From Verrucomicrobiia bacterium (GTDB lineage: Bacteria > Verrucomicrobiota > Verrucomicrobiia > Limisphaerales > UBA11358), in contig JARLJW010000018.1 of NCBI GenBank assembly GCA_031290985.1, positions 1-64,000 on the forward strand: a stretch of DNA of 64,000 nucleotides, read 5' to 3'. The notes under the pieces were generated by a model. The model saw nothing but the letters and a program-made list of their open reading frames with translations, was not told the origin of the DNA and did no database searches. Below, one piece after another: positions 41,785 to 44,266 of the stretch (position 1 is the stretch's first letter; each line of letters opens with the position of its first letter). The translations under genes and the position numbers were made by a program.

Positions 41785-42591
41785 TCAATCGAGCCGTTTG
41801 ACGCGGATGTTCTTGTAGTGGACCACGCTCTTGGGATCGTGGCCTTGCAGCGCAAAGGTTCCGTCCGCGAGCTTGCGGGTGAAGACTTTGCCCGGCTGCG
41901 CGCCGTCCGGCTCGGTGTATTCCAAGACGATGATGTCCTTGATCTTGACGGTGACCTTGTTGCCCTGCACGGTGATGTCCTGCGTGTACCATTCGCCGTC
42001 CTGGGCGGGGGTGTTGCCGAGGTTGGCCACGTCGTACAAGCTGCCGGTTTTTTTCCAATCGCTGTGGGTCACGTTCACCTGGCACTCAAAACCGTTCGTC
42101 GGCCAGCCCACGTCCTGATAGTGCGTGTGGAAATAAATGCCGCCGTTGGAATGCGGGCCGGTCAGGACGTCCACCTTCAGCTCGAAATTCTTGAACGGCT
42201 TCGGGTCGCCCACGTAGAAGATGTGGCAGCGGTCGCCGTGGGCGACCAGGGCGCCGTCCGCGATCGTCCAGGTGTTGGTGTGCTCGGTGGCGGTCTGCCA
42301 GCCGTCAAAGGTTTTGCCATCAAACAGGCTGGTGAAACCTTCCTCGGTCTGCGCGGAAGCGGCGCGGGCGAGGAGCAACAGGGCGGCAGCGGCGGCCAGA
42401 GCATTTTCAGAAATACTGTAGCCGTTCGGTTTGGCTGGAGGAAGGGGCGGTCTTTTTGGGTTTTGGCTTCGTTTCGGCTCAGTCACAGGGTTGCTTGGAA
42501 CCTGCTCCTTCGCCAAAGCCTCGCCAAAACCCAAAAATCCTCGCTCCGAACGGCTACAGTATTTCTTCAAACGCTCTAAAATTGATTTCAT
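41785..42591 (-). CDS. DUF1080 (3-keto-disaccharide hydrolase-like) protein with an inserted repeat peptide
   Basis: 268 residues. The DUF1080 domain (~85-268) is clear: GFTSLFDGKTFDGWQTATEH, NTWTIADGALVAHGD, 'FELKVDVLTGPHSNGGIYFHTHY' and a C-terminal 'GTFALQGHDPKSVVHYKNIRVKRL'. These concanavalin-like proteins cut 3-keto-glycosides and are expanded in Verrucomicrobiota. The N-terminus is odd: instead of a plain signal peptide, about 60 residues from a palindromic DNA element (42398-42577) separate MKSIL from the hydrophobic LAAAAALLLLARAASA. There is no alternative start after the insert, so either the insert is translated or the protein is badly exported. Start overlaps the stop of the PaaK-like gene (ATGA). 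Confidence 0.88.
   Translation of the reverse strand: MKSILERLKKYCSRSERGFLGFGEALAKEQVPSNPVTEPKRSQNPKRPPLPPAKPNGYSISENALAAAAALLLLARAASAQTEEGFTSLFDGKTFDGWQTATEHTNTWTIADGALVAHGDRCHIFYVGDPKPFKNFELKVDVLTGPHSNGGIYFHTHYQDVGWPTNGFECQVNVTHSDWKKTGSLYDVANLGNTPAQDGEWYTQDITVQGNKVTVKIKDIIVLEYTEPDGAQPGKVFTRKLADGTFALQGHDPKSVVHYKNIRVKRLD
42398..42577. mobile_element. Palindromic repeat element inserted in frame in a gene
   Basis: About 180 bp bounded by inverted repeats: 42398-42429 and 42546-42577 match at 29 of 32 positions, with a perfect 21-bp core (42409-42429 with 42546-42566, AGAAATACTGTAGCCGTTCGG and its complement). A second inner pair of 15 bp is also perfect (42453-42467 with 42523-42537). There is no transposase gene. 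The element keeps the reading frame of the DUF1080 gene open and adds about 60 residues (KYCSRSERGFLGFGEAL ... PAKPNGYSISE). It looks like a MITE or a Rickettsia-palindromic-element-like sequence. Confidence 0.82.
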
Positions 42592-43868
42592 GCCCCGACT
42601 TTATCCGCCGCCACGCGACAAGTCAGCCGAAATTTTCCCGAGGCCGCCGGGACGAGCGTGGTCATCGCCTCCGCCGGGATCGCGGTGCGGGTTTGTAACA
42701 GCGTGGCGAGGCGCGCGGTCACGGCGTTCAAGGTTTCTTCGGTCGGCGGGGTGGTGTCCGGGATGAAGCGGAGCGCGCCTTCACCGTCCGCATGTTGCCG
42801 CAGTTCGTAGTGGGCGATGCCCGCCGCGCCGGCGAAGCACTGGTCCACCTGCCACGTCGTGACGCGCGAGCCATCGGCGGCGGTCAAGGCATCACGGATG
42901 CGGCCGTGCACGATGAAGTTGTTCCCGTAGGGCTGCACGCGGCGTTCCGCGAGGTCGCCGATGCGATAGCGCAGCAGCGGCATGAAATCGTTGCTCAAGG
43001 TCGTGACCACGAGGTCGCCGATGTTGCGGGCGTCGAGGTCGGTGATCTCCAAAAAGGCCGTGTCGTAGCTCTGTTTCATCTCCCCGCGTTCGTTTTCCAT
43101 GAGCAGATGACCCGTCTCGGTCGAGCCGTACAGGTTGAACACCGGCACGCCGAACACGCGCGTCAAAATGTTCCGGTGCACGACGCTGGTGAATTCGTAG
43201 CTGCACAGAATGAACTTCAACGAGGGAAATTTGATCCCGCGCCGCTCGCAATACAGCGCGAACCACGCGGCATGGACCGGGTCGGCATCGAGAAAAACCG
43301 GCGACCACTCCGTGATCTCCTGCGCCATCCGCGCCAACTCCGCCTCGCTGATCAAAAAGGGCAGGCGCGCCAGGTTGACGAACAGGGACTGGTTGATGAC
43401 GCGCTGTTCGCGCGACATCCAGACCGTGGGGCAGGTCAGGCCGTTGCAGGAGGGCGAGGTGATGGTCGCGCGGCGGGCATCCGGAAATTCATCCAGAATT
43501 TTGGCCACGACGGCGTTCAGCCGCAGGGCGCGCTGTTCCTGCGCATCCCACCAGCCGCGCCCGAAGATGACCGGCAACCGGTCGGACGTGGTGCCGGAAG
43601 TGTGTTCCAGCTCGATGAGGTTTTGTTCCTGCAAGGCTTCGAGGGAGGCGGATTCGCCGAGGAAATTGCGCGGGAAATTTTCCCGCATGGCGGTTTTGGC
43701 GAGCAGCGGGAGTTTTTGAAAACATTCGGGGCCGGCCTCCTGACAGTCCGCCTGCGCGAGCAAGTCATGGTACAGCGGTGCTGCGCGCCAGCGCGGCAGC
43801 AGGGCGGCCAGTTGGGCGCGTTGACCCGCCTCATGGATGATTTCCGGTGTCGCCAGCATATCGGCCAA
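42588..43868 (-). CDS. Phenylacetate-CoA ligase-like AMP-forming enzyme (PaaK/CapK family)
   Basis: 426 residues. The adenylate-forming fold of the PaaK type: FQKLPLLAKTAMRENFP, the P-loop-like LEHTSGTTSDRLPVIFGRGWW, FNLYGSTETGHLL, 'GDLVVTTLSNDFMPLLRYRIGDLAERR' and a C-terminal domain (VHGRIRDALTAADG, VTTWQVDQCF). PaaK activates phenylacetate; CapK-like relatives activate other acids in polysaccharide pathways. No phenylacetate-pathway gene is nearby, so the substrate is open. Coupled by an ATGA overlap to the DUF1080 gene. Confidence 0.88.
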   Translation of the reverse strand: MADMLATPEIIHEAGQRAQLAALLPRWRAAPLYHDLLAQADCQEAGPECFQKLPLLAKTAMRENFPRNFLGESASLEALQEQNLIELEHTSGTTSDRLPVIFGRGWWDAQEQRALRLNAVVAKILDEFPDARRATITSPSCNGLTCPTVWMSREQRVINQSLFVNLARLPFLISEAELARMAQEITEWSPVFLDADPVHAAWFALYCERRGIKFPSLKFILCSYEFTSVVHRNILTRVFGVPVFNLYGSTETGHLLMENERGEMKQSYDTAFLEITDLDARNIGDLVVTTLSNDFMPLLRYRIGDLAERRVQPYGNNFIVHGRIRDALTAADGSRVTTWQVDQCFAGAAGIAHYELRQHADGEGALRFIPDTTPPTEETLNAVTARLATLLQTRTAIPAEAMTTLVPAASGKFRLTCRVAADKVGA

Positions 43869-44266
43869 TATACACTCGATTTTTCAAAAGCAAACCGCGT
43901 TCGCCCGCGGTTTTTACAGGGGGGATACTATAAAGTGCGTTCAAAGATGGCAGGACGAACACCTCTCCCCGACTCTCTCCCCATTTGGCCCCGGCCCCAC
44001 CAAACGCGGAGAGGGAGAAACGGTTGCCGCGTCCTGGCAAAAGGTGGCGTCTTGGTTCATGGGGTCAATGCGCGGAATCTTTTGGGGAAATCTCTCCCCG
44101 GCCCTCTGGGGAGAGGAACGCGTGGGGTTGTGTTCGTGAGGCGCGTTGGTCGCGGGTGTAATCCGGTCGCAGCAATTTACAAAGTGCAGGGCGGCTGGAC
44201 ATTTCACGCGGCCTGATTGACGAGGGTTGCTGCGCCCGGGACGGGCGCACTCCGCCAGCCGCGGGC
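43869..44266. other. Repeat-rich intergenic region
   Basis: About 400 bp with C/T-rich 'CTCTCCCC' blocks (43962-43984, 44092-44115) paired with nearby 'GGAGAGGG' to make hairpins, and the second copy of the 3'-end repeat at 44163-44253. No gene is credible here. Confidence 0.65.
44163..44253 (-). repeat. 3'-end hairpin repeat, copy 2
   Basis: Matches 2164-2259 over its whole length with few differences. The hairpin TGCGCCCG/CGGGCGCA is perfect (44231-44238 with 44242-44249). It begins 17 bp beyond the stop codon of the HtrA-like gene on the minus strand, the same geometry as copy 1. Confidence 0.75.

Follow-up and report, generated by a model that had tools for sequence, protein, structure and literature searches.

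RUP of pneumococcus is a 107-bp intergenic repeat with TA targets, for which IS630-Spn1 is the proposed mobilizer (PMC2229807). Of the Rickettsia palindromic elements (RPE) first reported, nearly half lie in genes, and each RPE encodes a conserved peptide (PMC2229807, PMC10969869). MITE sequences fused in frame have been described for the enterobacterial RU-1/ERIC and the Yersinia RU-2/YPAL repeats (PMC2759123, PMC2229807), and the Correia/NEMIS repeats of Neisseria are TA-bounded palindromic MITEs of which one size class occurs in reading frames (PMC2229807). REP/REPIN sequences are 20- to 40-bp hairpins tagged with GTAG or CGTC and accompanied by a RAYT gene (tyrosine transposase) (PMC3733652).

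We analyzed a window of 64,000 nucleotides (the whole stretch of DNA under study) from a bacterium of the Verrucomicrobiota in which a palindromic element interrupts a DUF1080 gene. Like RUP as portrayed in the relevant passages of PMC2229807, the element is short, palindromic, and TA-bounded, has terminal inverted repeats (TIRs) in common with IS630-family insertion sequences (IS), and has no coding role. Compared by description, it differs from RUP in its length of ~180 bp, its structured and conserved interior, its host phylum, and three copies that lie in frame in signal peptides. It has in common with RPE the palindrome, the 100- to 150-bp class, and the tolerance of in-frame insertion into genes (PMC2229807, PMC10969869), but the Verrucomicrobiota element has few in-gene copies, no conserved frame, and IS630 elements with matching ends. 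In RU-1/ERIC and RU-2/YPAL fusions the MITE supplies the signal sequence, whereas here it separates the n- and h-regions of the host's own signal peptide, which is complete in orthologues. The Correia/NEMIS repeats, again compared by description, belong to another host group, and REP/REPIN sequences differ from the Verrucomicrobiota element in size and in its TA ends.

The first-pass annotation had placed a 180-bp palindrome at 42398-42577, with 32-nt terminal arms, a 21-nt core, and inner 15-nt arms, in frame inside the DUF1080 gene, where it adds ~60 residues between MKSIL and the signal-peptide core. Both the structure and the position were borne out (Table 1). The terminal arms are 91% complementary, with a perfect core, and the extent from TIR to TIR was refined to 178 bp flanked by CA and TA. 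Folded as its minus strand, the stretch 42390-42585 reaches -100.5 kcal/mol (z = -10.6; none of 200 dinucleotide shuffles was as good). An Rfam scan returned only a chance-level microRNA match (E 0.33), and a search of 42300-42700 for terminator-like or promoter-like sites found none. Another repeat-like stretch in the window, at 43960-44140 (LSPTLSPFGPGPTKRGEG / SPSPRLVGPGPNGERVGE in opposite frames), looks like a further palindromic repeat.

Table 1 Features of the DUF1080 locus, in positions of the window
Feature	Positions	Strand	Basis
DUF1080 gene with the insert (3-keto-disaccharide hydrolase-like), 268 aa	41785..42591	-	Translation, PF06439, orthologues
Hydrophobic core and ASA/Q end of the putative host signal peptide, directly after the insert	42352..42399	-	Translation, orthologue comparison
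CA at the junction on the downstream side in the gene; presumably an altered TA of the target duplication	42397..42398	.	Sequence
Terminal inverted repeat arm 1 (core 42409-42429)	42398..42429	+	Sequence, arm pairing
Probable IS630-type MITE, GAGC...GCTC, 178 bp	42399..42576	-	Sequence, arms, own-genome copies, flank statistics
Inner 15-nt arm TTTTTGGGTTTTGGC	42453..42467	+	Sequence, arm pairing; helix 3 of pair counts
Inner 15-nt arm GCCAAAACCCAAAAA	42523..42537	+	Sequence, arm pairing; helix 3 of pair counts
Terminal inverted repeat arm 2 (core 42546-42566)	42546..42577	+	Sequence, arm pairing
TA at the opposite junction, within the TTA codon of Leu 5	42577..42578	.	Sequence, flank statistics
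AMP-dependent ligase-like upstream gene; stop overlaps the DUF1080 ATG (ATGA)	42588..43868	-	Sequence, translation

The DUF1080 gene is open throughout the element and reads MKSIL, ~60 residues, and then AAAAALLLLARAASAQ. Its DUF1080 domain is complete, with a PF06439 match at residues 85-265 (E 1.2e-40). The upstream ligase-like gene has no Pfam match, and its NCBIfam matches fall below their cut-offs. DUF1080 matches at E ≤ 1e-30 occurred in eight of 49 genomes of the genus, own genome counted. Orthologues in four other genomes (G067, G016, G002, and G013) are 76-82% identical to the window gene, with the match starting only at residue 54-64, and have an ordinary signal-like N-terminus without insert, for example MKSIFAIAALSVCLARIAIAQ (G067) and MKYLLAAVTLAFLSVRLATAQ (G016). 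By eye, the end of the upstream gene is the same in G067 and G016. This comparison had been proposed as a check on the annotation: the N-terminus is not common to all orthologues, and the insert is therefore a gain in the window's lineage.

Nor is the element a single copy, the other outcome that would have told against the annotation. A whole-element search of the own genome found it in at least 29 distinct places among 30 loci fetched, 24 with both ends and five truncated, with weaker matches besides. The best other full-length copies in this genome are 87-89% identical to the window copy, and its closest relative (94%) lies in another species (G005), so several lineages of the element coexist. 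Within the order, 24 of 320 genomes carried the element at E ≤ 1e-8 (two candidates scored per genome); in a first genome set it was present in 13 of 59 at E ≤ 0.001, own genome included. A pattern for the conserved core matched 86 stretches among 84,980 species genomes; among the 80 matches listed, all were in Verrucomicrobiota MAGs or, in a few cases, in MAGs named only "bacterium," and the names included Verrucomicrobia subdivision 3, Limisphaerales, Pedosphaera, Verrucomicrobiales, Verrucomicrobiota, and Verrucomicrobiia. The same pattern matched no contig of IMG/VR. The short TIR pattern used alone was weak, with 37 own-genome matches within three mismatches against 51 for the reversed control. 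The element is thus short, multi-copy, bounded by terminal inverted repeats, and free of a transposase gene, as a MITE is. Among the papers listed in searches of the open-licence PMC literature, none described an element of this kind from Verrucomicrobiota.

The copies examined include 80 regions fetched from among the places listed in one of the searches, and the totals used below (143, 132, 128, 126, 115, 94, and 70) are deduplicated loci examined rather than all copies in the genomes. The set of 132 was drawn from 285 hits by requiring both ends, 400 bp of flank, and recognizable ends, and the set of 128 is the same set with one copy per locus identifier. An own-genome subfamily (L042, L045-L050, and others) has ~16 extra bases in the left part of the interior, cggtgccgatcatcgg-like and themselves forming a small inverted repeat, and two copies (L052 and L056) have one further insert in the element. 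In genome G168, many contigs (such as C98, C151, C154, C157, and C159) end within the element, which therefore probably breaks these assemblies up; the real number of copies is probably higher.

The ends of the copies point to a preferred target. Exact GAGC/GCTC ends were present in 70 of 94 full copies, with TA on the left in 49 of these, on the right in 52, and on both sides in 40. The base beyond the TA position was Y on the left in 63 of the 70 and R on the right in 63, giving a YTAR target. The two bases flanking the left and right ends agreed in 42 copies against 37 expected from re-pairing of the flanks, which is no excess, and no direct repeat was longer than re-paired flanks give. The YTAR preference accordingly rests on flank statistics, and the TA duplication is inferred: TA stands on both sides of 40 of 70 copies, there is no base-exact empty site, and the TA beside copies could belong to a longer TIR. 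IS630 elements duplicate TA and favor such palindromic targets. At a locus in G138 (of the genus of G140) that is orthologous to one G140 copy the element is absent, and the intergenic DNA is too diverged for an exact empty site. In the window, the CA at 42397-42398 was presumably once TA; if so, the net insertion amounts to 180 bp, or 60 codons, and the DUF1080 site before insertion would read ...ATTTTAGCC... with one TA.

Candidate mobilizers were sought as DDE_3 transposases in 59 relatives; 30 loci were fetched and scanned with an HMM of the element and, independently, for TA-bounded inverted repeats. A DDE_3 match was found in 31 of the 59 genomes and in six of the 13 that bear the element. 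Matching ends were found in two of the 30 loci (L223 and L224), starting TAGAGC...ACTGTAGCC, with element-HMM matches of E 1.1e-4 and 0.0045. These partner IS are ~1 kb long. In L224 the transposase is split over two frames that overlap; the second matches the NCBIfam IS630 model at 2.1e-37, above the cut-off, and the first falls below it. The overlap contains seven consecutive A (locus position ~1400), a run that recurs in L223 and is likely a programmed frameshift site.

Relatives of the second L224 frame occurred in 24 of 320 genomes at E ≤ 1e-30, and among 30 related transposase loci returned, 11 distinct elements had TAGAGC at both ends. On a profile of MITE ends, 16 such loci scored 21.6-38.2 bits per end, except for two ends at 7.9 and 15.3, compared with -56.1 to +2.6 bits for 14 other IS630 loci and an average of 30.3 for MITE ends, both sets having been chosen for recognizable TIRs. 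The 14 of the 30 related loci outside this scoring had no recognized TAGAGC pair (contig-end cuts, other repeats, and one duplicate). Within the order, TIRs are thus common to the element and to an autonomous IS630-family element. One genome, G140, has both the IS and the MITE; one MITE there lies directly against the IS, with a TA common to the two, and three of the genome's copies are 98% alike. Co-residence overall was at the level of chance, since only G140 and G160 were in both sets (24 of 320 each) with ~1.8 expected; the G160 transposase match is partial (92 aa), and no TIR pair was found with it. The window's genome (assembly 94% complete) gave neither a DDE_3 match nor a match to the partner transposase, so any mobilizer there is lost, unassembled, or different.

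Copies avoid coding sequence. Only five of 132 lie inside it, against 412 of 1,138 random YTAR sites (p 1.5e-17), with element flanks of up to 1,500 bp, random-site flanks of 1,200 bp, and gene context scored by codon log-odds rather than by a gene caller; the random sites were drawn, with elements unmasked, from 61 stretches, the majority of which had been fetched because they carry the element. Neighboring genes were convergent rather than divergent in a ratio of 42:9 for 126 copies, against 32:95 for 583 non-coding YTAR sites (p 2e-12). The control for orientation was initially random non-coding points, later replaced by YTAR sites away from copies, and the direction was the same. A landing preference for stop codons, striking at first, was explained by the YTAR target: 18 of 127 copies sit exactly on a stop codon, as do 68 of 726 non-internal YTAR sites, which is no significant excess (p 0.11). 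Among individual copies, L307 (G140:C47 near 73970) sits in the middle of a separate inverted repeat (CCACGGGTTT / ACCCGTGG) that may be a terminator hairpin. A gene that matches AbiEii (toxin-antitoxin) has L047 (G000:C89 near 2883) at its end, and its frame stops a few codons into the element.

Among 143 distinct copies, seven had a frame that crosses the element and continues for at least 80 residues in coding-like or hydrophobic sequence; this test misses inserts with fewer than 80 residues downstream, such as C-terminal ones. Three copies are clearly in frame in genes, and one more (L036) is possible. Besides the DUF1080 gene, the clean cases are a lytic transglycosylase of the window's genome (G000:C54:45614-46810), which reads MNYRWRMKY, element, SAVILMWLLVGRLASAQ, and a Reg_prop propeller protein of another species (G020), which reads MRR, element, LVFCVMVMFMAAGAFGA. 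For the transglycosylase, 19 fetched orthologous loci start matching at residue 59 or later, and the 11 that were printed have a hydrophobic start without insert. Six paralogues of the G020 propeller protein were fetched, and the four printed lack the segment. In all three clean cases the insert separates the n-region from the h-region of a putative signal peptide, and the net lengths, TA added, are 180, 180, and 168 bp. This suggests that the n/h junction is a safe harbor, the one coding place in which such an insert is readily tolerated and 55-60 extra residues would do least harm and leave with the signal, as judged from these three cases.

L036 was dropped as an in-frame insert in CarB (carbamoyl-phosphate synthase) when the second half of CarB was seen to start ~110 bp downstream of the element; it was kept as a possible case for its upstream open frame, an 87-codon stretch at a contig end that is duplicated at another contig end. 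No Pfam family matched this stretch, which may resemble a Mu-phage DUF3486 protein. The through-open frames of L145, L066, and L342 were judged by eye to be antisense or chance, and L154, L099, and L352, which scored as gene-internal, have net lengths not divisible by three. In these genomes the second half of CarB appears as a separate open frame, of 599-806 codons in the fetched loci (L216 / G000:C109 near 58,500; L186-L214). The ends of two own-genome contigs (L215, at the end of G000:C111, 63791-64051, and L216, at the end of G000:C109) are 92% identical over 253 bases of coding-looking DNA without Pfam match, a second repeat at which the assembly breaks.

The first-pass annotation had likened the element to RPE. 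That part of the comparison which describes a mobile palindrome in frame in a gene, with insert-free orthologues and many copies, stands; a kinship with RPE or a close likeness is not supported, given the avoidance of coding sequence, the absence of detectable coding selection, and the IS630-type termini. A selfish protein-coding palindrome of the Rickettsia kind, keeping a frame of its own for life inside genes, would agree with the palindrome, the size, and the in-frame insertion, and at least one of the six frames is indeed open in 99 of 128 copies (84 ± 5 in shuffles), two minus-strand frames being open in 68 and 49 copies against ~29. The copies are related, however, so that neither the open-frame excess nor the pairs used for N/S are independent, and the ratio of N/S to expectation was 0.74-1.22 over the six frames in 95 close pairs, with no detectable coding selection; the lowest value, 0.74, belonged to a frame used by none of the three in-gene cases, which occupy three different frames. 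Three-base periodicity was absent (p 0.39), and net length was a multiple of three in only 29 of 132 copies. Neither a large share of copies in frame inside genes (three clear and one possible of 143, with the coding share given above) nor a conserved encoded peptide or preferred frame was found, despite the excess of open minus-strand frames. We regard this coding interpretation as very improbable. On its sequence features, the element reads as an IS630-type MITE and not as an RPE.

The conserved interior bears on a different possibility, that the element is spread by IS630 but retained by use, its hairpin serving a nucleic-acid function at the 3' ends of genes, as a terminator, as a guard of mRNA ends, or as a protein-binding site. 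Across 115 aligned copies, most ten-base blocks of the interior were conserved at 0.85-0.96 compared with 0.74-0.79 for the inner TIR, the exceptions being the loop, at 0.67, and a single segment next to the right TIR, at 0.55. Two-sided paired changes numbered 150, against 60 in shuffles (none of 500 reached it) and 20-47 in slid controls; these counts come from 34 of the 115 copies, chosen below 86% identity, and lean towards the window copy, from which the structure was drawn, while RNAalifold alone misses the middle helix. The convergent-neighbor excess also fits a 3'-end role, but avoidance of promoters yields the same bias, the share of copies on stop codons is not significantly above that of YTAR sites, and the scan of 42300-42700 gave neither terminator nor promoter. 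G-U pairs are rare in the inner (middle) helix, which would fit correction of the arms at the DNA level as well as RNA. We consider retention by use rather unlikely. Somewhat less doubtful, though still on the unlikely side, is that translation begins anew from an internal start codon, within the element or beyond it, which would make the insert effectively a 5' leader. The -100 kcal/mol hairpin directly after the DUF1080 ATG would favor a restart, as would the in-frame GTG and TTG in the window element and the in-frame ATG in the element of each other clean case; yet the frame remains open, and the overlap of the DUF1080 ATG with the upstream stop makes coupling likely.

Taken as a whole, the best explanation is in our judgment a MITE mobilized by IS630 that inserted at TA and was tolerated at the n/h junction of a signal peptide. 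We hold this to be probable, with confidence reduced because IS and MITE share genomes only at the chance level. The element would be non-autonomous and mobilized in trans by an IS630-family (Tc1/mariner-like) transposase recognizing the common TA/GAGC...GTAGCC ends, with insertion at TA within YTAR. In the DUF1080 gene, the target would have been the Leu codon TTA after MKSI; the frame stayed open because the element and its TA together span 180 bp and the frame needed is free of stops in this copy. The insert would lengthen the n-region of a Sec-type signal peptide, and cleavage after ASA would remove it and leave the mature enzyme unchanged. Most surviving copies lie outside genes, chiefly where two genes converge or precisely at a stop codon. 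Insertion at a stop codon is, from the sequence, harmless because TA plus GAGC rebuilds TAG. A broader joint reading seems doubtful to us: that signal-peptide n-regions are a general landing zone in Verrucomicrobiota, the 55-60 residues going with the signal, and that the conserved, covarying hairpin core is a functional nucleic-acid device carried to gene 3' ends by IS630 transposases of changing TIR type.

The element is a new family of IS630-type MITE in Verrucomicrobiota, of a kind that is itself known. It raises the questions whether the hairpin, in which most of the interior is more conserved than the inner terminal repeats, itself serves a function and how often mobile DNA lengthens signal peptides in this order. 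Outside Rickettsia, it is a clear example of a mobile palindrome that resides in frame in genes that look intact, with insert-free orthologues and a named likely mobilizer family, and its recurrent position at the n/h junction offers a simple reason why some in-frame inserts survive.
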